Assembly: GCA_017431515.1 (NCBI GenBank)
Contig: JAFRKV010000049.1
Location: forward strand, 1 to 39,264
From: Lachnospiraceae bacterium
GTDB lineage: Bacteria; Bacillota; Clostridia; Lachnospirales; Lachnospiraceae
DNA: 39,264 nt
Direction: 5' to 3'
In this document: in pieces, positions 9,420 to 32,850 of the stretch
How positions within the stretch are numbered: position 1 is the stretch's first letter
Layout: each line of letters begins with the position of its first letter
Notes under the pieces: model-generated
What the model was told of the DNA's origin: nothing
Database searches by the model: none
Seen by the model: only the letters and a program-made list of their open reading frames with translations
Translations under genes and position numbers: made by a program

Positions 9420-9420
9420 A

Positions 9421-9534: not shown

Positions 9535-9562
9535 AAAACTCCCTTGCTCCCCTGACGGAGCA
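9534..9562 (-). terminator. Weak candidate terminator after leader-peptide gene
   Basis: On the minus strand TGCTCC pairs with GGAGCA (9545-9550 with 9557-9562). A TTTTT run lies 6-7 nt after the stem (9534-9538 on the plus strand). The gap between stem and T-run makes it a poor intrinsic terminator, but it sits in the right place just downstream of the 9593-9832 gene. Confidence 0.3.
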
Positions 9563-9592
9563 CATGCTCGTCTACTTTGTTAGAGACCTTGA

Positions 9593-9832: not shown

Positions 9833-9867
9833 AGGGCATCTCCTCTTGCAGATTTGATAGTTCTACC

Positions 9868-9898
9868 TTATTATACGATGAAATTGTCGATGTGGCAG
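9868..9898 (-). promoter_or_regulatory. Promoter of the leader-peptide gene
   Basis: On the minus strand a perfect TATAAT (9870-9875) is preceded, with 17-bp spacing, by CTGCCA (9893-9898), a partial match to TTGACA. It lies in the 71-bp gap between the upstream GH43 stop and this gene's ATG, downstream of the GH43 terminator. Confidence 0.6.
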
Positions 9899-9903
9899 TT
9901 TTT

Positions 9904-11594: not shown

Positions 11595-11690
11595 CTTTCT
11601 TGAATGACAGGGGCGTATAGCCCCATTCCTGAGTGACAGCGGCATACAGCCGGTCCATTTCTGAGTTACAGCGGCATATAGCCGATCCTG
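11595..11690 (-). repeat. Three tandem stem-loop repeats before the GH43 start
   Basis: Three imperfect copies with a period of about 31 nt lie between the regulator and GH43 lipoprotein genes. Each has a short hairpin: 11672-11684 (CGGC/GCCG), 11640-11652 (CGGC/GCCG) and 11610-11624 (GGGGC/GCCCC). Each is followed on the minus strand by CTGT-A-TCA-GAA-GG-type sequence, which in the last copy is the ribosome site. The copy nearest the GH43 gene has changed both stem arms together. The first copy encodes the last codons of the regulator. Confidence 0.65.
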
Positions 11691-12580
11691 ACGGCGATGT
11701 CCTGCGCATAGTTGCCGAAGGTCTTGCCGAAAATGGTGAGGCCGCCCACATGCGCCGCGTCCTCCTCCACCGCAAGGCGGAATTTGATCTGGCTGTTGCT
11801 GGTCAGGGCGAGATCCGTCGTCGTGACCTCGGAGATCTGGCGGCCGTCAATAAACGTGCCGTTGCGGTTCACAACCAGAAGCTTTAACAACCCGTATTGG
11901 TTCCAGTTCGGATACCACCAGTCGGGGGTAAAGATCCCCTGCACGTCGCCGAAGTCTCCCGGAGAAGTCCATTCCCCCACATTCTGTCCGTTCAGGTAAA
12001 AGCGGATGTCGCTGGGCCAGTTGTTGTTGACCCCCGGCGCCTCTGAGGAGATCTCCATCTCGATCATCAGTTCCGTGATCTGCTGGTTCGGCGGAATGAA
12101 ATTCGGCACATCGTATTCCACAAAGCCTCGCGTGAACCAGAGAATATCCGCGTTATAGCGATCCGGATGGGAAAAATACCGCGGATCGTCCACCTCCCCT
12201 ACCATGGCTTCTGCCGATGCCAGCCCGCAGGTCGGATAAACCTCGTGGTTGGAATAATGTCCGACCTTGATGCTGCTCTGGTAAAAATCATCCATCGGCG
12301 TGCCCGGCATCAGATCGATCAGGATCTTATCCACATGTACGGTACAGATCTTTTGATTGCCGTGGCTGGCTGCTTCACTGCTGGTCTGCACGATGCCGCA
12401 GGACTCCAGCTTCTTAATATGAGAAGTCAGGGCGCCGTTGGTGATCTTGAGCCGTCCGGCCAGCTCGTTCATATTCATGCCGGGATGCTGCAGAAGCTGA
12501 CGGATGATCTCGATCCGCACGTCGGAACCCAGCGATTTAAACAGCTCCAGGCCGTCTTCCAGATTTTCAATGTGTAACAT
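11666..12580 (-). CDS. ArsR-type HTH regulator with C-terminal beta-rich domain
   Basis: A 304-aa transcription factor. Residues about 9-85 form an ArsR-like winged helix: LELFKSLGSDVRIEIIRQL, MNMNELAGRLKITNGALTSHIKKLESCGIV as the HTH with recognition helix near 48-62, and a wing to about 82. ArsR repressors usually stop near 110 aa; here about 200 residues follow. These are rich in Trp, Tyr, Asn and Pro (WPSDIRFYLNGQNVGEW, FTPDWWYPNWNQYG) and look like a beta-sandwich that could bind a sugar. ATG 12580 is chosen (GAGGAG 10 nt upstream). The gene is divergent from the arabinan operon and upstream of a GH43 gene, so it probably controls both in response to an arabinoside. The HTH is clear; the ligand is inference. 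Confidence 0.85.
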   Translation of the reverse strand: MLHIENLEDGLELFKSLGSDVRIEIIRQLLQHPGMNMNELAGRLKITNGALTSHIKKLESCGIVQTSSEAASHGNQKICTVHVDKILIDLMPGTPMDDFYQSSIKVGHYSNHEVYPTCGLASAEAMVGEVDDPRYFSHPDRYNADILWFTRGFVEYDVPNFIPPNQQITELMIEMEISSEAPGVNNNWPSDIRFYLNGQNVGEWTSPGDFGDVQGIFTPDWWYPNWNQYGLLKLLVVNRNGTFIDGRQISEVTTTDLALTSNSQIKFRLAVEEDAAHVGGLTIFGKTFGNYAQDIAVRIGYMPL

Positions 12581-12620
12581 AAGAAACAATCTCCTCGCTT
12601 ATCGTGATGGTGGTAAGAAG

Positions 12621-12912: not shown

Positions 12913-12941
12913 TTGACATCGTAAAATACATTCGATATGAT
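12913..12941 (+). promoter_or_regulatory. Strong promoter of the arabinan operon
   Basis: A perfect TTGACA (12913-12918), a 17-bp spacer and TATGAT (12936-12941). Transcription would start near 12948 and give a leader of about 50 nt with AGGAGG before ATG 13001. A near-consensus promoter with operators directly upstream suggests that it is held off by a repressor. Confidence 0.8.
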
Positions 12942-13000
12942 ACGAATCAGAGATGGAAATCTCGAACCTGTTAACGAAGCATGAAATAGGAGGAAGGACT

Positions 13001-14449
13001 ATGAAGAAGAAATTAGTCAGTGTTCTGCTTTGCGGGACGATGGCGGCAAGTCTTCTTGCAGGCTGCGGCGGTGCAAACGCCGGAAGCACAGGGGACGCAG
13101 AAGTGGATGCAGCAGTAGAGGCTGCAGAGGAAGAGGCTGCTGAGGTTGAGGAAGCGGAAGGCGAAGAAGCGGCGGAAGAGGTTGAGGCCGTGACCGACAC
13201 TACGGGACCGGAAGACGGTACACCCCTCGAGCTGTGGACATTCGTTGAGCTGCACGGCACATTCTACCGCGATATGGCTGACAAGTGGAATGAAGAGAAT
13301 CCGGACAAGCAGATCAGACTGACCACCGTGACTTATCCTTACGGCGATATGCATCAGAAGATGATCATGAGCCTTCAGACCGGCACCGGCGCTCCGGATA
13401 TCTGCGACGTCGAGGTCGGACAGTTCCCGAACGTGGTGGCATACAAAGATGAAGGACTGGTTCCGCTGAATGACTATGTTGCTCCTTATGAAGCAACAAT
13501 GGTAAAATCCCGTCTCGATACCTATGCAGGCGATGACGGCAACTACTACGGCGCACCGTTCCATGTAGGCGCGACCCTGATGTACTACAATCTGGCTGCA
13601 ATGGAAGAAGCAGGACTTTCTCAGGCTGATATCGATGCAGTTGACACCTGGGATGACTGGGTGGCTCTCGGTGAGAAGTATCTGGATGGCATCGGTCATG
13701 AAGACGGAAAGTACTGGACCTCTGTTGATACGGGCGGCACGGACTGGATGTGGCTTGCGATGGCTGAGTACGGCGAAGACTGGACCGGCGGTTTTGACGG
13801 ACCGGCAAATGTACAGTTAGACTCCGTGAAGAAGATGCTGACCATGCAGCAGGATTGGCTGAACAGCGGTCTGGCAGAGATTTCTCCGGACGGACACGTA
13901 GACCTTGAGGCCGGCTTCCAGAACATTCTGGATCACAACATTGTTTCCTTCCCGAAGGCAGCATGGTATATGAGCCGTTTCTTGAACTACATGCCGGAGG
14001 AAAAAGGCAACTGGTATCTGGCTCCCTGCCCGGTATTTGAGTCTGGTCAGGGTCATTCCGTAGGTATCGGTGGTACCGGTACGGTCGTTACGGATCAGTC
14101 CGAAGCACAGGAACTTGCAGCAGAGTTTGTCTGCTGGGCAAAGATGGGCGAAGAAGGTGAGAATTACATCTGGGAGAACCTCGGATTCGATGTTTGCAAC
14201 ACCGCTCTTTGGACGCAGGATGACTTTGCACATGATGACAGCAACCAGTACAACCAGTTCTTCCGGAACTATCCGTACGATGTGCTGAATAAGGTCAAAG
14301 ACGGCATTGGCAAGATCTCTGTTGTATCAATCAGCCCGACGATCAATGACTACTTCTGCACAACGACCGCAAATGAGGTTTTGGAGCAGGGCATGGATGT
14401 GGACGAGGCACTGCAGGAACTTCAGGATGCAGTTGATCTGGAGCAGTAA
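13001..14449 (+). CDS. ABC transporter sugar-binding lipoprotein
   Basis: A family 1 extracellular solute-binding protein of 482 aa. ATG 13001 has AGGAGGAAGGACT upstream; an in-frame ATG at 12953 lacks a ribosome site. The signal peptide (MKKKLVSVLLCGTMAASLLAGC) ends in a lipobox. A long Glu/Ala-rich linker (about 30-65) lifts the binding domain off the membrane. The mature domain has typical features: LELWTFVELHG, FYRDMADKWNEENPDKQI, MIMSLQTGTGAPDICDVE. It feeds the two permeases downstream. From the neighbouring arabinan enzymes the ligand is probably arabino-oligosaccharide (inference). As first gene of the operon, followed by an mRNA hairpin, it is likely expressed above the permeases. 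Confidence 0.93.
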   Translation: MKKKLVSVLLCGTMAASLLAGCGGANAGSTGDAEVDAAVEAAEEEAAEVEEAEGEEAAEEVEAVTDTTGPEDGTPLELWTFVELHGTFYRDMADKWNEENPDKQIRLTTVTYPYGDMHQKMIMSLQTGTGAPDICDVEVGQFPNVVAYKDEGLVPLNDYVAPYEATMVKSRLDTYAGDDGNYYGAPFHVGATLMYYNLAAMEEAGLSQADIDAVDTWDDWVALGEKYLDGIGHEDGKYWTSVDTGGTDWMWLAMAEYGEDWTGGFDGPANVQLDSVKKMLTMQQDWLNSGLAEISPDGHVDLEAGFQNILDHNIVSFPKAAWYMSRFLNYMPEEKGNWYLAPCPVFESGQGHSVGIGGTGTVVTDQSEAQELAAEFVCWAKMGEEGENYIWENLGFDVCNTALWTQDDFAHDDSNQYNQFFRNYPYDVLNKVKDGIGKISVVSISPTINDYFCTTTANEVLEQGMDVDEALQELQDAVDLEQ

Positions 14450-14480
14450 AAGTAACCGGACACTACGAGGCATTCACATA

Positions 14481-14505
14481 TAGGGGCTGTCTGAGACAGC
14501 CCCTA
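14481..14505 (+). promoter_or_regulatory. mRNA stem-loop between binding protein and permease
   Basis: TAGGGGCTGT pairs perfectly with ACAGCCCCTA (14481-14490 with 14496-14505) around CTGAG. No T-run follows (ATTTCC), so it is not a strong intrinsic terminator. Such hairpins after the binding-protein gene commonly stabilise the 5' segment or partly attenuate the operon. Confidence 0.7.
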
Positions 14506-14527
14506 TTTCCAAAAAGGGGTAAGGAAA

Positions 14528-15445
14528 GTGGAGAAAAAGAAGAAAGGAAATGTGTTTTCGCATTTTTTGTATTCCCAAAAGACGGCACCGTATGTTTTTG
14601 TGCTGCCGTTTCTTCTGAGCTTTGCCATCTTCTGGATCTACCCGATGATCAGCACCGTCATTATGAGTTTCCAAAACGTGAAACCCGCCGGTGCGGAGTG
14701 GGTCGGATTTGATAACTATGCGAAGCTGCTGAAGGACAGTGTGTTTCATCAGGCGGTCGGCAATTCCGTGCTATACATGGTTCTGACGCTGGTGCTTTTG
14801 ATTCCGTTCCCGATGCTGTGGGCTGTCCTGATCGACAGCAATCTGGTGAAAGCAAAGGGAGTCTGGAAAGCGATCCTTTACATTCCGGCGCTGACCTCTG
14901 TGGTCATCTCCGGTACACTGTTCCGATTGATGTTTTCCGAGTACAAAACCGGTTTTATGAACCAGGTGCTCGAATTCTTCGGACAGTCACCGATTAAGTG
15001 GCTAAAAATGTACCCGACGGCGTATTTCGCATTGCTGCTTCTTTGCTGCTGGCGATGGACCGGTGTGAATATGCTGTATTTCCTGTCGGGACTGAAAAAT
15101 ATAGATCCCGCACTTTATGAATCTGCGGATATTGACGGGGCGTCCGCATGGCAGAAATTCCGTTATGTGACGATCCCGCTCTTGAAGCCCACGATCATCT
15201 ACGTGTTGACGATCTCTGTCTACGCAGGTCTTGCGATGTTCCTGGAAAGCTTCATGTTATGGGCAGGTAATTCCTCGCCGAAGAATATCGGTCTGACGAT
15301 CGTCGGGTATCTGTACAAACGAGGCATCGAAAAGAACCAGATGGGTTATGCATCGGCGGTTGGTCTGGTGCTTCTGGTGGTAGCGCTTGCGATTAATATG
15401 GTACAGCTCGTTGCGACCGGAACCTTCAAGAAGGAGGAAAAGTAA
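14528..15445 (+). CDS. Sugar ABC transporter permease (AraP/MsmF type)
   Basis: Inner-membrane permease of the CUT1 carbohydrate family, 305 aa with six predicted helices; the first begins near residue 18 (APYVFVLPFLLSFAIFWIYP). The EAA loop that contacts the ATPase is visible as ESADIDGASAWQKFRYVTIPLLKP (about residues 199-222). Start is GTG 14528, after GTAAGGAAA. It ends in a ribosome site shared with the next gene, the second half of a heterodimeric channel. No ATPase gene lies in the operon, as is usual for clostridial CUT1 systems served by a shared MsmK-type ATPase. Confidence 0.92.
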   Translation: MEKKKKGNVFSHFLYSQKTAPYVFVLPFLLSFAIFWIYPMISTVIMSFQNVKPAGAEWVGFDNYAKLLKDSVFHQAVGNSVLYMVLTLVLLIPFPMLWAVLIDSNLVKAKGVWKAILYIPALTSVVISGTLFRLMFSEYKTGFMNQVLEFFGQSPIKWLKMYPTAYFALLLLCCWRWTGVNMLYFLSGLKNIDPALYESADIDGASAWQKFRYVTIPLLKPTIIYVLTISVYAGLAMFLESFMLWAGNSSPKNIGLTIVGYLYKRGIEKNQMGYASAVGLVLLVVALAINMVQLVATGTFKKEEK

Positions 15446-15446
15446 G

Positions 15447-16343
15447 ATGGCAAAAACACTTACCGTTTCGAAAAGAAGAAATACGATCGGCGGTACGAAG
15501 CACACGGTGCTTTCCATCCTTGCAACCGTCTTTTTCCTGGGATTATCTCTGATCATTGCATTTCCGCTATTTGCGGGACTCCTAGCCTCCTTCAGACCGG
15601 GGCGTGAGCTGATCAGAAAAGGTCTCTCCATCGATCTGGATTTTTCGACGATGACGCTGGACAACTATATCTATCTGTTTGGCGGGAACGGCGGAAAGCA
15701 GGACTCGTCGAAGTATTTTATGTGGTTTAAGAACAGTCTGCTCCTGACGCTGATCACGGTGGTCGGGACACTTCTGATCTGCTATTTTGTGGCATACGGG
15801 CTTTCCATGTATGATTTCAAATTGAAAAACCTGCTGTTTTTCCTGGTGATCGCGACGATGATGGTGCCGTTTGAGATCTTAATGCTTCCGCTTTATCAGG
15901 AAATTATCAACCTGAAGCTGATAGACACCACATGGGGTGTGATTCTGCCGGGACTCTGTGCCGCCGGAACGATTTTCTTCTTCCGACAATATATGCAGGG
16001 ATTGCCGAAGGAGCTTTTGGATGCGGGACGTATTGACGGTGCCAACGAGTATCGGATCTGCGTGCAGATCATGATGCCCATTACAAAGCCGGCCTTTGCT
16101 TCCATGGCGATCCTTTGTGCCATGGGCGCATGGAACAATCTCCTCTGGCCCATGCTGGTGTATCGTTCCTCGAACAAATTTACCCTGCCAATCGGTCTGA
16201 ACACGCTGCTGACGCCCTATGGAAATAACTATGACGTGCTGATTGCGGGTTCCATGTTTTCCATCCTTCCGGTACTGGTTGTGTTCCTGATCTTCCAGAA
16301 ATACCTGATCGATGGTATGACCGCAGGCGCTGTAAAGGGTTAG
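15447..16343 (+). CDS. Sugar ABC transporter permease (AraQ/MsmG type)
   Basis: Second CUT1 permease, 298 aa with about six helices. ATG 15447 is chosen: AAGGAGGAAAAGTAAG lies directly upstream and the previous stop is only 2 nt away; an in-frame ATG at 15387 would overlap the previous gene without a ribosome site. The EAA motif is seen as LLDAGRIDGANEYRICVQIMMPITKP (about 191-216). The N-terminal TM begins near residue 21 and the C-terminus ends YLIDGMTAGAVKG, the usual ending of MsmG-type proteins. It pairs with the preceding permease. Confidence 0.92.
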   Translation: MAKTLTVSKRRNTIGGTKHTVLSILATVFFLGLSLIIAFPLFAGLLASFRPGRELIRKGLSIDLDFSTMTLDNYIYLFGGNGGKQDSSKYFMWFKNSLLLTLITVVGTLLICYFVAYGLSMYDFKLKNLLFFLVIATMMVPFEILMLPLYQEIINLKLIDTTWGVILPGLCAAGTIFFFRQYMQGLPKELLDAGRIDGANEYRICVQIMMPITKPAFASMAILCAMGAWNNLLWPMLVYRSSNKFTLPIGLNTLLTPYGNNYDVLIAGSMFSILPVLVVFLIFQKYLIDGMTAGAVKG

Positions 16344-16359
16344 GAGGAACCGGATAAAG

Positions 16360-17310
16360 ATGAATGCGACACTTACCTACAATAAACCATGGATCCTGCA
16401 GCGGGCAGATCCTTATGTTTGCCGGCATACGGACGGAAGCTATTATTTCACGGCTTCCGTGCCGGCGTATGACGGGATCGTTCTGCGAAGGGCAGAGCAT
16501 CTGTCGGATCTTCCGGAGGCGGAAGAGGTTGAGATCTGGCATTGCCATGAGTCCGGACCCATGAGTCAGCATATCTGGGCACCGGAGCTGCATTATCTGG
16601 AGGGGCGCTGGTATCTTTATTTTGCGGCCAGCAGAAAGGATGATATCTGGGCACTCCGACCGTATGTGCTGGAGTGCTCCGGACAGGATCCCATCAGGGA
16701 CAGCTGGAGAGAGCTTGGCAAAATGCAGCGGGCGGAGGAGGATGAATTTTCCTTTGAAGCCTTTTCACTGGATGGCACCGTATTTGAGAATCATGGAAAG
16801 CATTATTATGTGTGGGCGGAAAAGGTCGGCGTGGGAAAGCAGATCAGCAACCTTTATATCGCCGAAATGGAAACGCCTCATAAGCTGAAGACAGTTCAGG
16901 TGCTGCTGACAACGCCGGATTACGACTGGGAGCGCGTCGGGTTCTGGGTCAATGAGGGACCCTCCGTAATCAAGCGGGGCGGAAAGGTCTTTATGACATA
17001 CTCCGCCAGCGAAACCGGAGCGGCCTATTGCATGGGAATGCTGACGGCATCCGAGGACAGTGACCTTCTGGATCCCCGTTCCTGGAAGAAGGAGCGGCAT
17101 CCCGTGCTGGCAACGGATGCATCCAAGGGCATTTACGGACCGGGACACAATTCCTTTACCGTGGATGAGGATGGCAACGACATTCTGGTTTATCATGCCA
17201 GAATCGAATCGAAAATAGAGGGAGATCCCCTATATAACCCGAACCGGCATGCGCAATTGATGAAGATCCGATGGGATGATAACAATCGACCGGTATTTTC
17301 TTATGAGTGA
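16360..17310 (+). CDS. Cytoplasmic GH43 alpha-L-arabinofuranosidase
   Basis: A 316-aa single-domain GH43 enzyme without signal peptide, so it acts on imported oligosaccharides. The catalytic triad is visible: D17 (QRADPYV), D138 (SLDGTVFE) and E199 (VNEGPSVI). It also has IWAPELHYLEGRWYLYFAA (72-90). RADPYV, IWAPELHY and NEGPSV together resemble exo-1,5-alpha-L-arabinofuranosidases of the GH43_26 kind (family memory, not checked). Start ATG with TTAGGAGG about 12 nt upstream. It sits between the permease genes and GH127, matching a role in trimming arabinan fragments to arabinose. Beta-xylosidase activity is less likely in this context. Confidence 0.87.
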   Translation: MNATLTYNKPWILQRADPYVCRHTDGSYYFTASVPAYDGIVLRRAEHLSDLPEAEEVEIWHCHESGPMSQHIWAPELHYLEGRWYLYFAASRKDDIWALRPYVLECSGQDPIRDSWRELGKMQRAEEDEFSFEAFSLDGTVFENHGKHYYVWAEKVGVGKQISNLYIAEMETPHKLKTVQVLLTTPDYDWERVGFWVNEGPSVIKRGGKVFMTYSASETGAAYCMGMLTASEDSDLLDPRSWKKERHPVLATDASKGIYGPGHNSFTVDEDGNDILVYHARIESKIEGDPLYNPNRHAQLMKIRWDDNNRPVFSYE

Positions 17311-17420: not shown

Positions 17421-19352
17421 ATGAAGAAGCTGAACACGATTTCCCTGAATGAGATTCGTCTGACGGATGATTTTTTCGGGAAATATACAGAGCTTGTGAC
17501 GAAGGAAATCATCCCTTACCAATGGCGTGTGCTGAATAACAGAGAACCGTCGGCGGAAAAGAGCAACTGCATTGAAAATTTCAAAATTGCCTCCGGCGAG
17601 GCAGAGGGCGAATTCTATGGATTCGTGTTCCAGGACACGGATCTGGCGAAGTGGCTGGAGGCAGTGGCATATTCCCTTTCCTACGAAAAAAATGAGGAGC
17701 TGGAGCGCATGGCGGATCAGGCGATTGAGCTGATCGGCCGTGCGCAGCGCCCCGACGGCTATCTGGATACCTATTTCATCATCAAGGAGCCGGAGGGGAA
17801 ATTCACGAATCTAAGGGAAGGGCACGAGCTATACACAGCCGGGCATTTTATGGAGGCGGCTGTGGCATATTATGAGGTGACCGGCAAGGATCGCCTCCTT
17901 TCCATTATGGAAAAAAACGCGGATCTGATCTGCGAAACGTTTCACACAAAGGTCTATGAAACGGCGGTGCCGGGGCATCAGGAGGTGGAAATCGGTCTGA
18001 TCCGTCTGTATGAGGCCACCGGAAAAGAAAAGTACCTTGCTATGGCAAAGGATTTTATCGACCGCCGGGGGACGGAGCCGAACTACCTGATACATGAGCA
18101 TGAACATCAGAACTGGACGGATGTGTTTCACAATCCGGATCCGTTTTTTCCGGCCTATTCCCAATGCGACGAGCCGGTACGTCAGCAGAAAACCGCCAGG
18201 GGACATGCGGTGCGCGCGGTGTATATGTACTGCGCCATGGCGGATCTCGCCGCAGCGTATGATGATAAGGAGCTGCTGGACACCTGCCGGACGTTGTACC
18301 GGAATATCACGGAGAGGCAAATGTACCTTACGGGAGGCATTGGCAGCAGCGGAATTTATGAACGGTTCACTGTAGACTATGATCTGCCCAATGACCGGAA
18401 TTACGCGGAGTCCTGCGCATCCATAGGTCTTGCTCTTTTCTGCAGAAGAATGGCGCAGATCACGCATGAGACCCGGTATCTGGAAACGATGGAGACCGCG
18501 CTTTACAACACCGTGCTGGCAGGGATTGCCATGGATGGAAAAAGCTTCTTCTATGTCAACCCGCTGGAGGTGGTACCGGAGTTTTGCATGGATTTTTCTT
18601 CCATCGGTCATGTGAAGCCTGTGCGGCAAAAATGGTTCGGCTGCGCGTGCTGCCCGCCGAATATCGCAAGGACACTGGCTTCTCTTGGCGCATACCTTTG
18701 CTTTACGGAGGAGAAGGCGGTTTATCTCAATCTTCATGTTTCCTGCAGCTTTTCCGCGACGATTTCGGGAAAGACCGTTCGGTTTTCCGTGAAAACCCGG
18801 ATGCCGTTCTATGGTGAAACGGAACTATCCGTGGACAATCCGGAGCAGACCTCCGGAACGGTTTTCATCCGGATTCCGGCCTATGCAAAGGATCCCCTGC
18901 TACAATGCGACGAGGGAGAGGTTATGAAAACGGATGCCGGGATATACGCGGCGGTACCGCTTACGAAGGAATTGAAGACCATAAGGCTTCGGTTTTCCAT
19001 GCCGGCGGAGTATGTTTACGCCGACCCGCAGGTTCGTGCGGATGTGGGGAAGGTAGCGGTGAAAAAGGGTCCCCTTGTCTATGCAATGGAGGAAGCGGAT
19101 AACGGGAAAAATTTGGCCGCCTTTTTCGCAGATACCGGGATACAGCCCAAAGAGGTGTTTGAAAAAGAGCTTCTGGGAGGGACGATGACACTCCTTGTGG
19201 AGGGCTGGCGTCTTTTGCGGGGGGATGGAGAATCCGGATTGTACAGGATTGTCAGGCCTGAACGGGAACGGACATCGGCAAGACTGATTCCCTATTGCTA
19301 CTGGAACAATCGGCAGCCGGGAGAGATGCTGGTCTGGATGAGGGAAGCATGA
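17421..19352 (+). CDS. GH127 beta-L-arabinofuranosidase
   Basis: A 643-aa enzyme of the DUF1680/GH127 family, cytoplasmic (no signal peptide). It removes beta-linked L-arabinofuranose, as in plant extensins or arabinan side chains. The metal and nucleophile residues of the Bifidobacterium enzyme HypBA1 (Glu338, Cys340, Cys417, Cys418) have clear counterparts: E330 and C332 in YAESCASIG, and C410 and C411 in FGCACCPPN. The (alpha/alpha)6 barrel region carries the conserved GHELYTAGHFMEAAVAYYEVTG (134-155) and TGGIGSSG (304-311); C-terminal beta-sandwich domains follow. Start ATG has only a weak ribosome site (ACAGGTGA). It overlaps no neighbour and ends 41 bp before the next gene. Confidence 0.95.
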   Translation: MKKLNTISLNEIRLTDDFFGKYTELVTKEIIPYQWRVLNNREPSAEKSNCIENFKIASGEAEGEFYGFVFQDTDLAKWLEAVAYSLSYEKNEELERMADQAIELIGRAQRPDGYLDTYFIIKEPEGKFTNLREGHELYTAGHFMEAAVAYYEVTGKDRLLSIMEKNADLICETFHTKVYETAVPGHQEVEIGLIRLYEATGKEKYLAMAKDFIDRRGTEPNYLIHEHEHQNWTDVFHNPDPFFPAYSQCDEPVRQQKTARGHAVRAVYMYCAMADLAAAYDDKELLDTCRTLYRNITERQMYLTGGIGSSGIYERFTVDYDLPNDRNYAESCASIGLALFCRRMAQITHETRYLETMETALYNTVLAGIAMDGKSFFYVNPLEVVPEFCMDFSSIGHVKPVRQKWFGCACCPPNIARTLASLGAYLCFTEEKAVYLNLHVSCSFSATISGKTVRFSVKTRMPFYGETELSVDNPEQTSGTVFIRIPAYAKDPLLQCDEGEVMKTDAGIYAAVPLTKELKTIRLRFSMPAEYVYADPQVRADVGKVAVKKGPLVYAMEEADNGKNLAAFFADTGIQPKEVFEKELLGGTMTLLVEGWRLLRGDGESGLYRIVRPERERTSARLIPYCYWNNRQPGEMLVWMREA

Positions 19353-19393
19353 AGACCGGCGATGGAAGGAACTACGGGAAAGGGTGTAACGCG

Positions 19394-20950
19394 ATGAAAT
19401 GGATTAAACCAAAAAAGATGGTGCGGATGATGGCAATCATGACAGGAGCGGCGGTGCTTGCCGCCGGATGCGGTGCAGGCGGAAGCGCACTGCCGGAGGA
19501 GCTTCCGGAGGAAGAAATCAAGGAGGGAGCTTTCAGCGCAGGCGCATCTCTGCATGATCCGTTTATCATAGAGGGAGACGATCATCTCTATTACTGCTAT
19601 GGCTCCCATATGACCGCCGCAACCACCGACAATCTCCGGTCTTTTAAAATGTGGGCGGACGGTGTTGACGAAAAGAATCCGATCTATGACAATTTGCTGA
19701 CGGAACCTTTTGACGCATTTTCTTTTGTGGGAAAAAACAGCGACAAATGGTATTCAGTATGGGCGCCCAGCGTGATCTACAATAAAACCACAGGGGAGTA
19801 CCTGATGTATTTTTGCACCACAAGCTCCTATATCATGTCAGATCTTTGTTACGCAACGAGCAAGGATATCAAGGGACCCTATCATTATCAGGGGACGGTG
19901 ATCTACTCCGGCTTTACAAAGCCAAATGCCACAAAGACCAATTATTATGAGATCAACGGAGAGGATAAGAAGCTGCGGGAACGCTACATCACGGTTGCGG
20001 GCTTTAATAACCAGTATTATCCGAACGCCATCGACCCGGCTATGTTTTATGACGCCGACGGGAGGATGTGGATGGTCTACGGCTCTTGGTCCGGCGGGAT
20101 CTTTTTGCTGGAGCTGGATCCGGAGACGAATGAACCGATTCACCCCGAGACGGACGATGCAAACGCCGTGGATCATTATTACGGGAAACGGCTGGTGGGC
20201 GGATTCCACCACCCCATTGAGGGACCCTATATCCAGTATGATGAGAAGTCCGGCTATTACTATCTGTTCCTTTCCTACGGAAACCTGCAGCAGATGGGGG
20301 GATACCAGATCCGGGTATTTCGAAGCGACAAGCCGGACGGCGTCTATACCGATGCTTCCGGGCATACGCTGGGGATCGATGACGACCTAGATCACTACGA
20401 AAACTACGGGACGAAGCTGATGGGAAATTATACGCTGCCGTCCCTTGCACAGACCTATATGGCGCCGGGAGGGCAGTCCACCTTTGTATCGGACGGCAAG
20501 CTTTTTATCGTTTATCATCAACGCTTCAAAAAAATGGATGAGTATCACGAACCGCGGGTGCATCAGATGGCGGTGAACGAGGCCGGGTGGCCTTGTATCT
20601 TCCCCTTCGCGACCTGCGGAGAGAGCCTGTCGGAAAAGGGATATCAAAAGAATGACCTTTCCGGGACGGTCTACCTTTTGAACCACGGACTGGCAGTGGA
20701 CGCAAAGGTGAATGAAGCGGTTCAGTGCAATTTTGCGGAAGGACAGATTACAGGCGGTCTGACCGGTACTTATGAGGTGAAGGAGGGCACGAATTACGCG
20801 GATATTACAGTGGACGGAATCACCTATCACGGCGTGCTGGTGGAAATGACCGATGAAGCGGGAAACAATACATTCTGCTTCTCCGGTGTGGGAGAAAATA
20901 ACCAGTCCCTATGGGGCATAAAATATTTAAAGGACAAGGAGGGAAATTAG
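19394..20950 (+). CDS. Secreted GH43 endo-1,5-alpha-L-arabinanase lipoprotein
   Basis: A 518-aa two-domain GH43 enzyme. ATG 19394 starts a signal peptide ending in the lipobox LAAGC (C26). The catalytic triad appears as D55 (LHDPFII), D214 (NAIDPAMF) and E276 (PIEGPYI). [12 protein letters not shown] (119-130) and [13 protein letters not shown] (230-242) match endo-arabinanases such as B. subtilis Abn2, which also carry a C-terminal beta-barrel; here that domain covers about residues 420-515 ([25 protein letters not shown]). It would cut arabinan at the cell surface and make the oligosaccharides taken up by the ABC system. The ribosome site is weak; GAAAGGG is about 13 nt upstream. It precedes GH51 by 2 bp. 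Confidence 0.92.
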
Positions 20951-20952
20951 GT

Positions 20953-22458
20953 ATGGCAAAACTGGTAATCAATGAAACCAACAAGCTTGGAAAGATTGAA
21001 CCGGAGATTTACGGACACTTTTCCGAGCATTTGGGACGGTGCATCTATGAGGGCTTGTATGTCGGGGAAAATTCCGATATTCCGAATGTAAACGGTATGC
21101 GTACGGACGTGGTCAACGCCCTGAAGGAGATTCAGGTGCCGGTACTTCGCTGGCCGGGGGGCTGCTTTGCGGATGAATATCACTGGAAGGACGGGATCGG
21201 AGAAAAGAGCAAACGGAAAAAGATGATCAACACCCATTGGGGCGGCGTGACCGAGGACAACAGCTTTGGAACCCACGAATTCATGGAGCTGTGCCGGCAG
21301 CTTGGATGCAAGACCTATGTCAACGGGAATGTGGGAAGCGGAACCGTGCAGGAAATGTCCGAGTGGGTGGAGTACATGACCTTCAAAGGCGTTTCTCCCA
21401 TGGCGGATCTCAGAAAAGAGAACGGTCACGAGGAGCCCTGGCGGGTGGATTATTTTGGTGTGGGGAATGAAAACTGGGGCTGCGGCGGCAATATGACGCC
21501 GGAGTTTTATGCCAACGAGTACCGGCGCTATCAGACCTATGTACGTCAGTATGATGAAAAGAATCCCATCAAGAAAATCGCCTGCGGACCGAATGTGGCG
21601 GATTACGCATGGACAGAGGGCGTCATGAAGACCTGCTTCAGGAACGCACCGGACTTCATGCACGGATTTATGGATCTCATTTCCCTGCATTATTACACCC
21701 ATCCGGAGGGCTGGGAAATCAAGGGAAGCGCAACGGATTATACCGACGAGGGATGGTATAAGACCTTGAACAAGGCGTATTATATGGATGAGCTGATCCG
21801 CCGTCACGGTGCTATCATTGACCAGTATGATCCGGAGAAGAAGATCGGGCTTTCCGTGGATGAATGGGGTACCTGGTTTACGGTGGAGCCGGGAACCAAT
21901 CCGGGCTTCCTGTATCAGCAAAGCACCGTGCGTGACGCGCTTGTGGCAGGAATTCACTTCAATATTTTCAACAAGCATTGTGACCGCGTGAAGCTGGCCT
22001 GTGTCGCGCAGATGGTCAATGTGCTGCAGGCAGTCATCCTGACCGATGGCGAGAAGATGCTGAAAACTCCGACCTGGCACGTGTTCCATATGTATCGTCA
22101 TCATCAGGGAGCAACGCTTTTGGAAAGCGCTCTTTCAGGAGTCGGCGAAACCGGCATGGACGAATGGAAGGTACCGGAGCTGACAGAGTCCGTTTCCGAA
22201 AAGGACGGTGTGATCACGATCACAGTCAACAACCTTTCCATATCGGATGCGAAGGAGCTGGAGGTGCAGTTCGCCGGAGACAAGGCGATGGAGGTAACGG
22301 AGGCAAGCATTGTCACCAGTGCGGATGTGCATGACCACAACACCTTTGACGCACCGGAGGTCGTGAAAGAGGAGACATTTACGGGATACCGCGCAGAGGG
22401 AGGAAAGCTTTCCCTGACACTGCCAAAGAGCAGCGTGGTATGCATCCGGGTAAAATAA
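20953..22458 (+). CDS. abfA: GH51 alpha-N-arabinofuranosidase
   Basis: A 501-aa GH51 enzyme that releases alpha-L-arabinofuranose from oligosaccharides in the cytoplasm. ATG 20953 is preceded by AAGGAGGGAAATTAGGT, and the preceding stop is 2 nt away. Catalytic residues: acid/base E173 in [11 protein letters not shown] and nucleophile E304 in SVDEWGTWF. Other signatures are [17 protein letters not shown] (19-35) and [13 protein letters not shown] (66-78). The TIM barrel is followed by the usual C-terminal beta-sandwich from about 390. It acts with the GH43 and GH127 enzymes of the same operon. The length is normal and no lesion is seen. Confidence 0.97.
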
Positions 22459-22523
22459 CAGGGGAAATGCCGGCTTCATCGGCAGCTCCTGAAAATTCTA
22501 GGATTGATCCGGGGAGACAAAGG

Positions 22524-24476
22524 ATGAATGAACAGGAATACAGAGATTATCTGACCGGATTGTACAATCGAAAATGGCTGTTTGAGCAGTGCCCGCTGAA
22601 AAGGAACCGGGAACCCTTCAGTCTGATCTATATAGATCTGGACAATTTTAAGACGGTGAACGACCTTTACGGGCATGAAGAGGGAGACCTTGTGCTGAAA
22701 CAGGTTGCGGACGCGCTTTCTCAAAGCGCGTCCGATGTTTTCGCCGTACGTATGAGCGGCGATGAATTTGTGCTGGTGCTTTCCGGGGAGCAGGACAGAA
22801 AAACCCTTACGGCGATTTATGAAACAGTATTGTCGAAAATCGAAGAAAAACGGTGCGAAGTACCGGGACTGTCGGTTGTATCCGTGAGCGCCGGAGCCGT
22901 CAACAGCACGGAAGCGGAAGGGGATCTTTTGACGGCTTTAAATCTCGGAGATGACGCCATGTATGCCGCCAAGCGTTCCGGGAAGCATCGTTGCGTCTTT
23001 TATGAAGATATCAGAGAGGAGATGCTTCGCGTAAAGCGAATTCAGGATGAGGCACCGGAGGCCGTGGCACAGGATCGGTTTGAGCTTCTATGCAATCCGC
23101 TGCTGAATCTTCAGAACGGGACGCTGATGCAGACCAGAATCGTGGCACTCTGGCACCGGGAGGACAAAACCGTCCTTTATCCCTCCCAGTACCGGCCGAC
23201 GCTGGAAAGCAACGGATTCATCCGCGTGCTGGATCAGTTTTTGCTGGAGAAGCTGCTACGGGAGATGTCATGCTTTTCCGACCGAAGACTATTGAAAAGA
23301 AAGCTTCGATTCAGTCTTGAGATTTCCGCCATTCTCCTTCTGGACAGGGGGCTCCCGGAAAAGCTGAAAGCGCTGCTGGCGGAAAACGGGGTAAAGCCGT
23401 CGGAGCTGGATTTTTCCGTTACGGAACGATGTCTGCTTTCCCGGGACGCAGCGTCTTTGATTGAAGGGATGCGGGAAATTGCAAAAACCGGTGTCAGTCT
23501 TTCCTTGAAAAATTACGGAGCGAATTTTGCGGCGATCCGCTATCTGAATCTGCTTCCGGTGGAGACCTTCCGGTTTGACCAGAGGTGGCTGCGGCAGAGT
23601 CTGAAAAACCATCAGGATCGGAAAATCGTGAAATCCGTCATCCGAATGACCAAGGACGCAAAAAAGACGGTTGCGGCAGTTGGAGAATTTGACGGAGATG
23701 AAAGAAAATTTCTTGCGTCCTGCGGATGCGATGCCTCCGGCGATTATGGAGAGGACGGACTTTTTGACGGAACGGCATATAAAAAATATATCAAAGAGAC
23801 TCTTCCCAAAGACGGCGGAGTAGTGTATGATTTTTTGCATACGCTGGAAGATCGGGACAGGCATTATCCGGGAGTAATCCGGGGAGAGGGCATTGCTTTC
23901 GTGTCCGGTATTTCCGATCTGCACGGGGCAGTACACTTCCCCGGGGGCAATATCGGCGAGAATGTGATCGAGCTGCCGCCGAGGCTTTTCGCGCAGAACA
24001 GCTACTCCATTGCCTTCTGGATCAGACCGGAAAAAATGACGAATTGGAGCAGTGCGGTCTATATGCGCTTTGAGGGCGGATTTTCCTCCTTTGTGCCATA
24101 TACCAACGCGGATGACGGGATCAGCGTTTACCGTATCAGTGTGGATGACGAGGGCTTTTTTGACACCACCTCCCGCGCCACGCGTCTCGGCGAATGGAGC
24201 TTTCTCTGCTTTGCCTATGATGCTACGGGAGAAGCGCTGCGTTATTACATCAACGGAAGACGGGCGCATTTTGAAACGGATATGCCCCTCCAGCTCGGAT
24301 GCAGGCAGGTGCTGTTGGGGGGAGATCCGTTCCAACGGTCTTTTGAAGGCGCGATTTCGTCCCTCTGCATTTACGAATATGCGCTTTCCGACGGCGAAGT
24401 TGGAAAGATGTATCAGAGTTACTTGAAGGAACCCGGATTTGCAGGTTCGACGGAAGACTACTGGATGGACAGCTGA
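22524..24476 (+). CDS. GGDEF / degenerate EAL / LamG-like fusion protein
   Basis: A 650-aa soluble protein; ATG 22524 follows GGGGAGACAAAGG (an in-frame ATG at 22440 overlaps abfA). Residues 8-160 are a GGDEF domain with active-site motif SGDEF (78-82), IDLDNFKTVND (37-47) and no RxxD inhibitory site. Residues 185-425 align with EAL domains but lack the catalytic set: VAL replaces EAL (207-209), LKNYG replaces DDFG (328-332), and VGEFD replaces EGVET (386-390). Residues about 430-635 look like a LamG/concanavalin-A-like fold (YSIAFWIRPEKM, LGEWSFLCFAYDATGEALRYYINGRRAHF, FEGAISSLCIYEYALSDGEV). There are no membrane segments. It is the last sugar-operon gene before YesL. Likely a diguanylate cyclase controlled by a sugar or polymer ligand; the lectin role is inferred. 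Confidence 0.85.
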   Translation: MNEQEYRDYLTGLYNRKWLFEQCPLKRNREPFSLIYIDLDNFKTVNDLYGHEEGDLVLKQVADALSQSASDVFAVRMSGDEFVLVLSGEQDRKTLTAIYETVLSKIEEKRCEVPGLSVVSVSAGAVNSTEAEGDLLTALNLGDDAMYAAKRSGKHRCVFYEDIREEMLRVKRIQDEAPEAVAQDRFELLCNPLLNLQNGTLMQTRIVALWHREDKTVLYPSQYRPTLESNGFIRVLDQFLLEKLLREMSCFSDRRLLKRKLRFSLEISAILLLDRGLPEKLKALLAENGVKPSELDFSVTERCLLSRDAASLIEGMREIAKTGVSLSLKNYGANFAAIRYLNLLPVETFRFDQRWLRQSLKNHQDRKIVKSVIRMTKDAKKTVAAVGEFDGDERKFLASCGCDASGDYGEDGLFDGTAYKKYIKETLPKDGGVVYDFLHTLEDRDRHYPGVIRGEGIAFVSGISDLHGAVHFPGGNIGENVIELPPRLFAQNSYSIAFWIRPEKMTNWSSAVYMRFEGGFSSFVPYTNADDGISVYRISVDDEGFFDTTSRATRLGEWSFLCFAYDATGEALRYYINGRRAHFETDMPLQLGCRQVLLGGDPFQRSFEGAISSLCIYEYALSDGEVGKMYQSYLKEPGFAGSTEDYWMDS

Positions 24477-24539: not shown

Positions 24540-25214
24540 ATGGGCGGATTTTTCAGTTACGAAGGCAAATTTTCACAGGTGATGAACAAGATCGTCGATA
24601 TCGTGGTGACGAGCTTTTTGTGGGTTGTGTTCTGCATTCCGATCTTTACCATCGGCGCCTCCACCACCGCTCTTTTCACGGTGATCCGTCAGGTGATCCG
24701 TCAGGAAAAGGGCTACGTGTTCAGAAATTTCTGGAACGCCTTCAAGTCGAATTTCAAGCAGGCCACCGGGATCTGGCTGCTGCTGTTTGCGATCTATGTG
24801 GTCCTTTATCTGGACCGCTATCTCATGCTGAATTATTTCCTGCCCCAGGGGTCGCCCATTGGCGCACTCCACATTTTTTTCACGTTTTTAATGGTCTACG
24901 AGACGATCTGGGCGGTTTACATTTTTGCTTATATTTCCCGCTTTGAACTGGATTGGAAGCATATCCTGAAAAACGCGGCCATCCTTTCCGTGACGAATCT
25001 CCCCTGGTCCGCGCTGATGACCGGGATGGTGATCCTCGCGGGGATTTTGATCCGCTATGTGTCGCCGGCGCTGATCTTTGTGTTCCCGGCCGGCTTTGGC
25101 TGGATCTTTTCCATTATCCTGGAGCGGATCTTCCGGAAATACATGACGCCGGAGGATCTGAAAAAACTGGAGGAAGAGGAAGCGGCGCTGAAGGAAAACG
25201 GAGGCCGCAGATGA
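24540..25214 (+). CDS. YesL family membrane protein (DUF624)
   Basis: A 224-aa integral membrane protein with about five helices. The N-terminal signature FSQVMNKIVDIVVTSFLWVVFCIPIFTIGASTTAL (about 12-45, in parts) is diagnostic of YesL/DUF624. The C-terminus is charged (DLKKLEEEEAALKENGG). YesL genes typically sit in clusters for uptake and breakdown of plant oligosaccharides beside CUT1 permeases; the biochemical role is unknown. GAGGTAGGATATC precedes ATG. Its stop overlaps the next start (ATGA), tying it in translation to the aminotransferase gene, so it bridges the sugar operon and the following genes. Confidence 0.9.
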   Translation: MGGFFSYEGKFSQVMNKIVDIVVTSFLWVVFCIPIFTIGASTTALFTVIRQVIRQEKGYVFRNFWNAFKSNFKQATGIWLLLFAIYVVLYLDRYLMLNYFLPQGSPIGALHIFFTFLMVYETIWAVYIFAYISRFELDWKHILKNAAILSVTNLPWSALMTGMVILAGILIRYVSPALIFVFPAGFGWIFSIILERIFRKYMTPEDLKKLEEEEAALKENGGRR

Positions 25215-29546: not shown

Positions 29547-30887
29547 ATGGGGACTACCAATGGAGAGACATCCCGGGCGAAGGTGCCGCTGACGCGGTCA
29601 ATGCTGGCGAAGATTTTGCTGGTGCTTTGCGCGGGAGTCCTTTTTACAGGGATCGTATTGATCGTGATCGCAGCCACGGAACTTAAGAACAATGTGGCTG
29701 ACAGCGCGCTGGTGAACCGCGCTGTGGGGCAGATGATTCTCGCGGGGGTCATCATCTTTGCCATCGTGCTGGTGATCGGGATCGTGGCTGTGAGACAGAT
29801 GATCCGTCCGCTGACCCAGTTGACGGCCATTGCGGATAAAGTGGCGGATCTGGACTTTACGGAGAATCCCGAACAGGAGAAATTAAATCAGCGGAGTGAC
29901 GAGATCGGCATGACGAGCCGCGCCATTGACAGGCTTCATACGGAGCTTTCCGCGATCATTTCCGCGATCCGCGTGCAGGGCGAACAGCTGCGCTCCACGA
30001 ATACCGCCTTTACCAGAGAGTTTGACGAGATCGTGGAAAATGTGATCCATGTCAACAGCGCGGTGGAGGAGATCGCCAGCGGCAGCACCACCCAGGCGAA
30101 TGAGACCAGCGGCGCGGGAGAAGCAGTAAATGACATCGGCGATGCTATCGCTTTGAACGGGGAGTCGGTGCATTCCCTGGAAGACTCCATCCTGAAGATG
30201 AACGATCTGTCCGACCAGTCCAACGACATGTTGAACGACCTGGAGGACATCAATAACAAGACCACTCTGGCCATCAACACGGTGACGGAGCAGACGAATG
30301 CGACCAACCGCTCCGCGGAAAAGATCCGCGACGCAGTGACGCTGATCCAGGATATCGCCGCCCAGACCAATCTCCTTTCTCTGAACGCATCCATCGAAGC
30401 GGCCCGCGCCGGCGAAGGCGGCAGAGGATTTGCGGTGGTGGCGGAGGAGATCAGGAAGCTTGCGGAGAATTCCGCAGAGTCAGCCGGCACCATCGAAGAG
30501 ATCACCTACGAACTGATCGGCAATTCCGAGGATTCCGTGGAACGGATGAAAGGGCTTTCCGAGGACGCCGTGATCCAGGCGGAGAAACTGAAAAACACCA
30601 AGGATTCCTTTGCGGGGCTGCAGCAGGAAATCCTCAATGTATCGGAAGCGTCCCATGATATCTTTAACCATACGGATACCATCAACAAATTGAAGAACCA
30701 TATCAGTGATGCCATCGAGCAGCTGGCGGCCATCGCCCAGGAAAACGCGGCCTCCACGGAGGAAACCTCCGCCAGCATGAGCACGCTGACCACGACCATT
30801 GATAAATGCAAGGAAGAGACGGAGACGTTGTCGGAGCTGTCTGCAAAGCTGAATGAGCAGACCGGACGTTTCCGGTTTGATGCGTAA
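29547..30887 (+). CDS. Methyl-accepting chemotaxis protein, minimal sensor
   Basis: A 446-aa chemoreceptor. ATG 29547 is chosen because GGGGGGAA lies 6 nt upstream. Two helices (about 20-45 and 57-80) enclose only about a dozen extracellular residues, so there is no periplasmic sensing domain. A HAMP segment follows ([22 protein letters not shown], about 81-102). The signalling hairpin is highly conserved: [40 protein letters not shown] lies in the middle of the cytoplasmic coiled coil. No C-terminal CheR-tether pentapeptide is seen. It may sense through the membrane or from inside the cell, or respond to partner proteins. Confidence 0.93.
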
Positions 30888-30957
30888 AGGCGCAGCGAGG
30901 GCTGTGACAAGGATACATCAGAAAAGCCGTGACTTAGATCAGAAAGGAGGGAGCGTG

Positions 30958-32850
30958 ATGTTTAGTACAGGCTATACCCCTGTAGGCGATGTGCTTGCGA
31001 TGTCATTGTCGCTTCTTCTTGTGGTGCTCATCAGTACCGCTTACATGACGAAAAAGAAGACCTTCCTGATCTTCCAGGTCATGCTGGTGACGGAAATGGT
31101 GGCGGCGATCTCGGATATGGTCTATCACATGCTGTTGGATGTTGCGCCGGTGCCGATGGTTCCCGTTTATCTGCTGCGGATGCTCCAGCATGCCGCGCTG
31201 TACCTTCTGCTCTGGCTGTTTATCTATTACATTCAGGAAATTCTCCATCTTCCGAAACCGGCCAGACGGCATTATTTCTCCATTTCCGGCATTGCGGTTC
31301 TGGCAGCGTGCGGATTTGACATTGTGATGACCGTGACCGGCAAGGGCTTTCAGGTTTCCCCCTACGGGATCATCAGAGAATCCGGCGGGGTGTTCGCGAT
31401 TTCCTATGCGTTCTTTATCGGGATGATCTTTTTCCTGCTGATCCGTTACCGGGCGCGGCTGGTGCGACAGATCTTCCGCGGCCTGTTGTTGACCTTCTTT
31501 TTCTGCCTCGTTATTCACGGCATCCAGGGTTGGAACAGACAGTCGTCCTTTACCACGGCGATCTATATTCTGCCGATTATCGCGTTGATGTATCTCCTGC
31601 ATTCCAATCCTTATGAGACGACCACCGGCGCGGTCAATGAGGAATCTTTTACAGACACTGTCATAGAGGCTTATCGGAAGAAGCAGAGGATGATGCTGAT
31701 GTTTCTCCATCTGCAGGACTTTGAAAGCTACAACTCCTTTACCGAGGATCTGCAGTTTGAGATTTTCCGGTTCTTTACCGGCATTGTGAAAAAAGGCACT
31801 CTGTTCCGCGTGGCGGGAGGCCGGCTGGCACTGACTTTCAAGGAAGTGGACAACCCGGACATGGAAGATGTTTCCAGAAAGGTGGAGCAGAGTTTTTACA
31901 ACCTTTATGAGCGCTATCGGCTTCCGTTCAAAGTGGTGATCATGGAGAGCGACGAGGAGATCAGCAAACATGAGGCTTACACCAAGTTCCTGCTTTTCAT
32001 GGAGGACCGTATCCCGTTAAATACCTATTATCATGTGACGGATGGAGACAAAGCGCTGTTTAAGAAACAGCAGATGATCCTGGCGCAGTTGGAGGATATT
32101 GCGGAGAAAGGCGATCCGGATGATCCCCGGGTACGGGTCTACTGCCAGCCGGTTTATCATGTGAGGAACCAGATGTATGATACGGCGGAAGCCTTGATGC
32201 GTCTGGAATTGCCGGAGCTCGGCACGGTTTTTCCGGATCAGTTCATCCCCCTTGCGGAGGAGAACAGGCTGATCCATGCATTGTCTCTGGTGATATTGCA
32301 TAAGACCTGCCGTGAGATCCGAAAACTGACGGACGAGGGATACATCATCAACCGGATCTCCGTGAACTTCGCGGTGCAGGAAGTGTATGACCCGCATTTC
32401 TGCGAGGATATCCTGCGGATCATTCAGGCCAACGGCATCGGGTGTGAAAAGATCGCCATCGAGCTGACGGAGAGCCAGAACACCGCGGATTTTGAAATGG
32501 TGAAATCCAGGATCGAGGAGCTTCAGAAGCACGGCATCAAATTTTATCTGGATGATTTCGGCACCGGATACTCCAACGTGGAACGTATCATGGAGCTGCC
32601 CTTTGACATCATCAAATTTGACCGGTCGCTGGTGATTGAATCCGGCAAGAACGAAAATTCCGAATACATGGTCAACACCTTCGCGGACATGTTCCGGCAT
32701 TTGGATTACCGGGTTCTTTACGAGGGCGTGGAGGATGACAATGATGAGGAACGATGCATTCGGATGTATGCGCAGTACCTGCAGGGCTATAAGTACAGCA
32801 AGCCCATTGCGATCGAGCGGCTGCGCGATTTCCTGACAAAGGCGGCTTAA
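30958..32850 (+). CDS. Membrane EAL phosphodiesterase with degenerate GGDEF
   Basis: A 630-aa protein with about seven N-terminal helices (residues 10-215), a degenerate GGDEF domain (about 240-370; GGRLA at 287-291 replaces GGDEF) and a complete EAL domain (about 390-628). Catalytic residues are present: E411 in AEALMR, N470 in SVNFAV, E505 in LTES, D532-D533 in LDDFGTG, K553 in IKFDRS and E589 in EGVED (the usual T is D). It should hydrolyse cyclic-di-GMP. ATG 30958 has AGAAAGGAGGGAGCG upstream. It follows the MCP by 70 bp and precedes pcrA by 3 bp, so the three may be cotranscribed. Ligand of the membrane sensor is unknown. Confidence 0.92.
   Translation: MFSTGYTPVGDVLAMSLSLLLVVLISTAYMTKKKTFLIFQVMLVTEMVAAISDMVYHMLLDVAPVPMVPVYLLRMLQHAALYLLLWLFIYYIQEILHLPKPARRHYFSISGIAVLAACGFDIVMTVTGKGFQVSPYGIIRESGGVFAISYAFFIGMIFFLLIRYRARLVRQIFRGLLLTFFFCLVIHGIQGWNRQSSFTTAIYILPIIALMYLLHSNPYETTTGAVNEESFTDTVIEAYRKKQRMMLMFLHLQDFESYNSFTEDLQFEIFRFFTGIVKKGTLFRVAGGRLALTFKEVDNPDMEDVSRKVEQSFYNLYERYRLPFKVVIMESDEEISKHEAYTKFLLFMEDRIPLNTYYHVTDGDKALFKKQQMILAQLEDIAEKGDPDDPRVRVYCQPVYHVRNQMYDTAEALMRLELPELGTVFPDQFIPLAEENRLIHALSLVILHKTCREIRKLTDEGYIINRISVNFAVQEVYDPHFCEDILRIIQANGIGCEKIAIELTESQNTADFEMVKSRIEELQKHGIKFYLDDFGTGYSNVERIMELPFDIIKFDRSLVIESGKNENSEYMVNTFADMFRHLDYRVLYEGVEDDNDEERCIRMYAQYLQGYKYSKPIAIERLRDFLTKAA

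Follow-up and report, generated by a model that had tools for sequence, protein, structure and literature searches.

Analysis of a 39,264-nucleotide contig from a Lachnospiraceae bacterium (JAFRKV010000049.1, assembly GCA_017431515.1; hereafter the window, meaning this stretch at its full length) led to a gene at position 22524 which belongs to an arabinan operon and encodes, on one chain, a GGDEF domain, an EAL domain that has lost its catalytic residues and a LamG-type domain (here the 22524 gene and the 22524 protein; Table 1). Judging from the sequence, the product would be a diguanylate cyclase of the cytoplasm whose C-terminal sensor is related to Domain 4 of the arabinanase AbnA, an explanation that as a whole we hold at about even chances. 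The gene comes eighth in a series of co-directional genes, namely a binding protein, two permeases, a GH43, a GH127, an AbnA-like GH43, a GH51-type gene (all GH being glycoside hydrolase families) and the 22524 gene itself, which starts 65 bp after the GH51-type gene and is followed by a DUF624 gene. Pfam recognised the GGDEF (E-value = 5.3e-29) and EAL (1.8e-33) domains and Laminin_G_3 at residues 479-626 (1.5e-18). Concerning the start, the other in-frame ATG upstream (22440) overlaps the GH51-type gene. A 19-residue hydropathy scan found no stretch of membrane or signal type (peak 0.93), and the GGDEF domain already begins at residue 6. A preliminary description of this DNA had given the same coordinates, start and arabinan-operon setting and had noted no membrane segment or signal peptide, and on these points it stands. 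Within the GGDEF coding region (22708-22734, +) there is also a perfect 12-bp hairpin followed by ATGTTTT, terminator-like by pattern only.

The GGDEF signature of the protein is RMSGDEF with the metal-binding Asp at position 38, the sequence features of a diguanylate cyclase (PF00990), in agreement with the active-type SGDEF described earlier, and cyclase activity may be predicted from them. No RxxD inhibitory site, in the form we take that motif to have, was seen by eye in the GGDEF domain. At the positions which we take, after published EAL enzymes, to be the eight catalytic ones (E N E D D K E Q), the protein has R E E K N R V G, E301 being the sole residue kept. With one of eight, the 22524 protein lacks the eight-residue signature of an EAL phosphodiesterase (PF00563). 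Receptors of the LapD/FimX type are degenerate in both GGDEF and EAL; such a receptor was considered and rejected, since the GGDEF signature is intact here and the NCBIfam LapD model reached 83.2 bits against a cut-off of 1020. The generic GGDEF domain was the only NCBIfam model above its cut-off for this protein.

The C-terminal 223 residues are predicted to form a beta-sandwich with a mean predicted local distance difference test score (pLDDT) of 95.1, and Laminin_G_3 (PF13385) matches with 67.8 bits against a cut-off of 27.6, so that profile and fold agree. When the model was compared by VIA-align 2 with Foldseek's top chains, the best match was Domain 4 of AbnA (5ho0, 5hon), with 28% identity over 191 residues and a root-mean-square deviation of 1.6; a module of this type is the closest solved relative of the LamG domain in both fold and sequence. 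The concanavalin/LamG fold that had been read from the letters was thus borne out by the fold check, with an arabinan-binding module as its nearest counterpart. By analogy, arabinan or arabino-oligosaccharides may be the ligand of the LamG domain. Across the family described below, all rows with a residue at the site agree on R537, D547 and D601, and all but one on Q604.

Table 1. Features of the arabinan operon and of the 22524 gene (positions in the window).
Feature	Position	Strand	Basis or remark
Winged-helix (ArsR/MarR-type) regulator	11666..12589	-	Homologues at 9 other loci of the GGDEF-EAL-LamG family
Promoter-like site TTGACA-17-TATGAT before first transporter gene	12913..12941	+	11/12 consensus bases; number of such sites in region at chance level
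Sugar ABC transporter binding protein (SBP_bac_1)	12953..14449	+	Pfam-type domain match
ABC permease 1 (BPD_transp_1)	14528..15445	+	Domain match
ABC permease 2 (BPD_transp_1)	15387..16343	+	Open reading frame as listed; start probably later
GH43, cytoplasmic type (GH43a)	16360..17310	+	Without hydrophobic N-terminus
GH127, beta-L-arabinofuranosidase type	17421..19352	+	Domain match
GH43 + GH43_C arabinanase, AbnA-like	19295..20950	+	5.4e-97 to 5ho0; lipoprotein-type signal ...LAAGC; likely start 19394
GH51-type alpha-L-arabinofuranosidase (Alpha-L-AF_C)	20911..22458	+	Domain match
GGGGAG, likely ribosome-binding site	22511..22516	+	7 nt 5' of ATG; inference
GGDEF-(dead)EAL-LamG coding sequence	22524..24476	+	650 aa; without signal peptide or transmembrane segment (Pfam, hydropathy)
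GGDEF domain, residues 6-155	22539..22988	+	RMSGDEF, Asp38 kept (Pfam and alignment)
EAL domain, residues 176-404	23049..23735	+	7/8 catalytic residues lost
LamG-type beta-sandwich, modelled residues 427-649	23802..24470	+	Relative of AbnA Domain 4
DUF624 protein, next gene 3' of the 22524 gene	24540..25214	+	Domain match

Proteins of this layout form a family. With the C-terminal part as query, 31 of 299 genomes of the same bacterial family (one genome per genus) were matched, and 14 of them, which stood apart by score (at least 85.3 bits versus at most 54.5), were used for the co-occurrence counts given below. Sixteen of 20 neighbourhoods contain a GGDEF-EAL-LamG protein, whose GGDEF is degenerate in some, while fragments occur in L044 and L045 and GH43-LamG proteins in L050 and L051. 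A scan of one genome per species over 84,980 species gave 76 loci, among them loci of Butyribacter intestini TF01-11 and Eubacterium sp. MSJ-13, whose proteins have both the EAL and the GGDEF motifs intact, and the proteins with EAL and LamG number 92 in all, or 81 once 11 duplicates are dropped; gene calls of relatives come from a longest-open-reading-frame (ORF) script, their starts being approximate. Besides the window, the labels in the 81-protein set comprise 51 Lachnospiraceae, 16 in the window's own family group and 4 others, and ten of the 16 loci have duplicates with Lachnospiraceae names. Outside the window's family no family-type score (>240 bits) appeared in 392 order-level and 398 phylum-level sampled genomes (best elsewhere, 68.9 and 82.9 bits), where mostly at most seven first-look candidates were scored per genome and misses are possible. 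The C-terminal 221 aa matched two plasmid records, both at 28% identity and annotated as LamG-like, viral contigs gave five weak LamG matches (22-27% identity), and a near-identity search with the 22524 protein found no match in E. coli. The LamG of L127 is split over two reading frames and L111 has lost its N-terminal half, possibly through decay or assembly error.

Along the family tree the catalytic domains appear to have been exchanged. Among the 81 proteins, 32 keep at most three EAL catalytic residues, 3 keep four or five and 46 keep at least six (all eight in 41). The (G/S)GDEF motif is intact in 31 of the 32 proteins with at most three EAL residues, the exception being the truncated L111. 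With L111 set apart, 11 proteins have lost the motif or do not have it; each of them keeps at least six EAL residues (ten keep eight), and in three the called ORF lacks the GGDEF domain altogether. When the eight catalytic columns are excluded from tree building, the 31 dead-EAL proteins occupy one side of a branch with a support of 100 in the Shimodaira-Hasegawa-like approximate likelihood-ratio test; outside this clade partial EAL decay is found in L088, L090 and L111, and also in L114. The loss of catalytic EAL residues, which the preliminary description reported, therefore holds for the 22524 protein and characterises one clade rather than GGDEF-EAL-LamG proteins in general. The sister group of the dead-EAL clade would carry the same kind of LamG sensor on an intact phosphodiesterase domain. 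Mean pairwise identity in the dead clade (31 rows) is 0.51 for GGDEF, 0.48 for LamG and 0.41 for EAL, compared with 0.57 for EAL and 0.47 for both GGDEF and LamG in the live group (40 rows, each keeping seven or eight residues), the 11 duplicates, L111 and four fragments being left out. The ratio of nonsynonymous to synonymous substitution rates (dN/dS) is 0.02 to 0.17 in ten close pairs wherever computable, with dS often saturated. These values indicate that the dead EAL has been preserved as a component and that LamG stays constant while the output enzyme changes; LamG would thus be the constant element of the family, with the catalytic domains decaying in turn. A few longer proteins (L048, L117, L118, L124, L125) have two GGDEF-like domains with a degenerate motif (SDN), an EAL with eight residues (six in L124) and LamG. 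L052 encodes a dead-EAL LamG protein of cyclase type (8160-10133) and, about 3 kb downstream, with phosphoenolpyruvate carboxykinase and endonuclease genes between, a second LamG protein (13269-14792) with an intact EAL and no GGDEF in the ORF, as if both directions of the reaction had been placed under LamG control.

The association with arabinan enzymes was followed in 50 representatives (subfamilies at 70% identity, single linkage) of the 81 proteins. The near set consists of 103 genes within 700 bp, one spurious ORF having been replaced by the DUF624 gene that overlaps it; the far control consists of genes more than 4 kb away, 103 drawn from 306, of which 102 remained after one that was also in the near set was dropped. 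In this unbiased survey GH43 is the commonest family among the immediate neighbours (8/103 near versus 2/102 far, a small difference), and GH43_C (6/103) and Alpha-L-AF_C (5/103) compare with at most 1/102 each in the far set, both being absent from the 25 families listed there. Genes with GH43 and GH43_C lie within 600 bp of the family gene in 18 of 24 cases, against 142 of 897 other neighbour genes (p = 4.6e-10, in a test that counts related loci separately). Chemotaxis receptor genes, present within 10 kb at 18 loci, show no preference for closeness (p = 0.43). In the window and in L052, L062, L065 and L098 the gene directly upstream, on the same strand, is of GH51 type; in L057 and L059 a single small gene (DUF6171 in L057) separates the GH51-type gene from the family gene. 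In two loci, L034 and L082, GGDEF, EAL, LamG, GH43 and GH43_C form a single chain of 1093 and 1096 aa, with GGDEF N-terminal. The GH43 parts of these fusions share 47-53% identity with seven GH43s from genes that lie tail to tail with the family gene (overlapping it by 4 or 8 bp in six loci, with a 28 bp gap in one) and 24-30% with other GH43s, most of which, outside the fused and tail-to-tail ones, carry a signal. Six of the seven tail-to-tail GH43s have 438-461 aa and no hydrophobic N-terminus, while the call for L061, 515 aa long, begins with an additional hydrophobic segment and probably has a wrong start, so that the term cytoplasmic rests on six of the seven. All four GH43 motifs, checked by regular expressions, were found in the seven tail-to-tail and two fused proteins; every other GH43 missed at least one, the first pattern at least being too strict.

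At the genome level, GH43_C is present in 14 of 14 genomes with the family and in 37 of 285 others (p = 3.4e-12); this p-value, like that of the GH10 control given below, overstates the case, since the genomes, although one per genus, share ancestry. Close relatives of the fused-type GH43 (E-value 1e-84 or better, the next match being 5e-54) occur in 8 of the 14 genomes and in 6 of the 285 (p = 5.6e-9), and within the genomes that have GH43_C in 8 of 14 versus 6 of 37 (p = 0.011).

Several observations weigh against a sensor of arabinan. GH43_C lies within 10 kb in only 9 of the 50 subfamilies, and any of GH43_C, GH51-type or GH43a in 15 of 50, counts in which many flanks are short and the L034 fusion is left out. 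Seven dead-EAL proteins (L070, L071, L073, L075, L076, L077, L079) adjoin an aminotransferase gene and have none of the arabinan gene clusters; a gene with a tRNA-editing domain is near five of these seven. The control GH10 xylanase was also enriched (6/14 versus 45/285, p = 0.019), and part of the co-occurrence therefore reflects a fibre-degrading lifestyle and kinship. In the LamG-domain tree the family appears to group alone and not with AbnA Domain 4 (support 85, the other rows being long-branched). Trp758 of AbnA Domain 4 is aligned to Phe545, aromatic positions are only partly kept, and at a site where AW stands in most intact-EAL members the 22524 protein and its two closest relatives carry an insertion of 2 residues. 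Finally, no cytoplasmic GH43_C protein was found in the genome of the window, the assembly being 81.8% complete by estimate. The neighbourhood conservation with arabinan genes that had been named as a check was consequently upheld among immediate neighbours and in genome-wide co-occurrence, but in only 15 of 50 subfamilies within 10 kb, which makes the link real but partial.

The window is a whole contig of a 2.35-Mb assembly, in which the 22524 protein is the only Laminin_G_3 match; the genome also has 25 GGDEF and 15 EAL matches, two PilZ and four flagellin genes. The winged-helix gene of Table 1 is perhaps the regulator of the arabinan operon. No Rfam family reached its gathering score in the window, and hence no known riboswitch for cyclic di-GMP (c-di-GMP) is present there. 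A second EAL protein (30853-32850, +; 665 aa, no Pfam match before residue 426) is encoded directly 3' of a chemotaxis receptor gene, and similar EAL proteins adjoin the family gene in L106 and L111. In L087, L092 and L095 a gene lies 3 bp downstream of the family gene; that of L087 encodes a response regulator with AraC-type output, with homologues in the other two.

The reading that we prefer is a LamG-sensing cyclase tied to arabinan use, for and against which we find the balance roughly equal. The protein would be a one-component sensor with LamG as input, EAL as relay and GGDEF as output. The operon would import arabino-oligosaccharides and break them down, so that a cytoplasmic arabinan module would meet them while arabinan is eaten. 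The input would be either the intracellular level of these sugars or the loading of an arabinan enzyme docked on LamG; it would change the packing of LamG on EAL and hence GGDEF dimerisation, raising c-di-GMP, and the non-enzymatic EAL would be kept as a relay between sensor and cyclase. The suggestion of the preliminary description that imported arabino-oligosaccharides, or a folded partner, set c-di-GMP levels is thus supported in part, the binding of these sugars and any effect on c-di-GMP being predictions. Given the flagellin and PilZ genes, an output on motility or adhesion is possible, and both output and direction of regulation are proposed here by inference.

A variant that we regard as unlikely, though worth serious attention, is that LamG docks a GH43 arabinanase and not free sugar, the substrate load of the enzyme gating the cyclase, with L034 and L082 carrying the enzyme in the chain. 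The two fusions, the seven tail-to-tail GH43 genes, six of them overlapping, and the excess of fused-type relatives in family genomes agree with it, as do contacts within AbnA, where hydrogen bonds join Domain 1 and Domain 4 and, in one crystal state, Trp758 of Domain 4 is in contact with Domain 1 (PMC9110388, in the part consulted). In five of the eight genomes, however, the GH43 and family-gene matches lie on different contigs or far apart, and the genome of the window has no fused-type GH43 at E-value 1e-30 (the assembly being incomplete), while its sole GH43_C protein has a lipoprotein-type signal; the partner there would therefore be the small GH43a or the GH51-type enzyme. Fusions and overlapping genes thus favour an enzyme partner in part of the clade, and the window genome, where no such partner was found, favours direct sensing or a different partner.

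It is rather improbable, in our view, that the operon simply makes an always-on cyclase when arabinan is present, LamG being a structural or dimerisation module. LamG folds can act as protein-protein modules, and the co-directional position of the gene, close behind the GH51-type gene, agrees with such control by expression. LamG is, however, about as conserved as GGDEF and constant while the catalytic domains decay in turn, its R537, D547, D601 and (but for one protein) Q604 are kept, and its best match is a binding module. That the arabinan neighbourhood is an accident of few lineages and the protein senses something else has very little probability. In its favour, 35 of 50 subfamilies lack all three arabinan gene clusters within 10 kb; against it, both groups show the link to GH43 repeatedly, with genes in several orientations and with fusions, and GH43_C accompanies the family in all 14 genomes.

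Returning to the LamG-sensing cyclase, its wider form would be that Lachnospiraceae turned the glycan-binding module of an arabinanase into a cytoplasmic c-di-GMP sensor, exchanged its cyclase and phosphodiesterase outputs and in some species fused the arabinanase to it, so that polysaccharide breakdown directly writes the messenger level; this we place somewhat short of an even chance. To our knowledge the inputs of most c-di-GMP enzymes are unknown. A cytoplasmic relative of a glycan module on such an enzyme offers a directly testable input for gut Clostridia, with a likely ligand suggested by gene order, GH43 fusions and a solved homologue, and, if true, it would tie the consumption of a single fibre to whether the cell swims or stays.

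Concerning known systems, the open-access literature, judged mostly from listings and with subscription papers and domain-database architecture lists outside its scope, gave no description of GGDEF-EAL-LamG proteins, and so does not contradict the earlier statement that no system with this layout had been described. AbnA of Geobacillus stearothermophilus, an extracellular arabinanase, shares the LamG/ConA-like sandwich as its carbohydrate-binding module and its association with GH43 and GH43_C. Unlike here, AbnA is secreted and the module follows a catalytic domain, whereas the present domain is cytoplasmic, sits on a c-di-GMP enzyme and appears to fall in a separate tree group. Composite GGDEF-EAL proteins with a degenerate EAL also combine an intact GGDEF motif and an EAL without catalytic residues in one chain; their usual sensor is N-terminal (PAS, HAMP or membrane), in contrast to the C-terminal relative of a glycan module found here. 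A GH126 protein of Bacillus velezensis is likewise a glycoside hydrolase fused to a GGDEF-type domain, C-terminal and with the degenerate motif SAERF, but it belongs to another hydrolase family, and the part of that report consulted does not mention LamG, EAL or a link with arabinan (PMC7479077). The protein of PMC5457731, as far as that source was consulted, is of HAMP-GGDEF type and unrelated. Trigger phosphodiesterases and trigger enzymes in c-di-GMP signalling (PMC5052742, consulted in part) would share the gating of an output by an enzyme or binding event through protein contact; here contact, which the fusions in L034 and L082 and the tail-to-tail genes may indicate, is putative, as are ligand and output. 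Enzymes of c-di-GMP that carry a sensor domain are a known kind of system; the LamG sensor, the family-wide exchange of output and the fusion with an arabinanase appear new.
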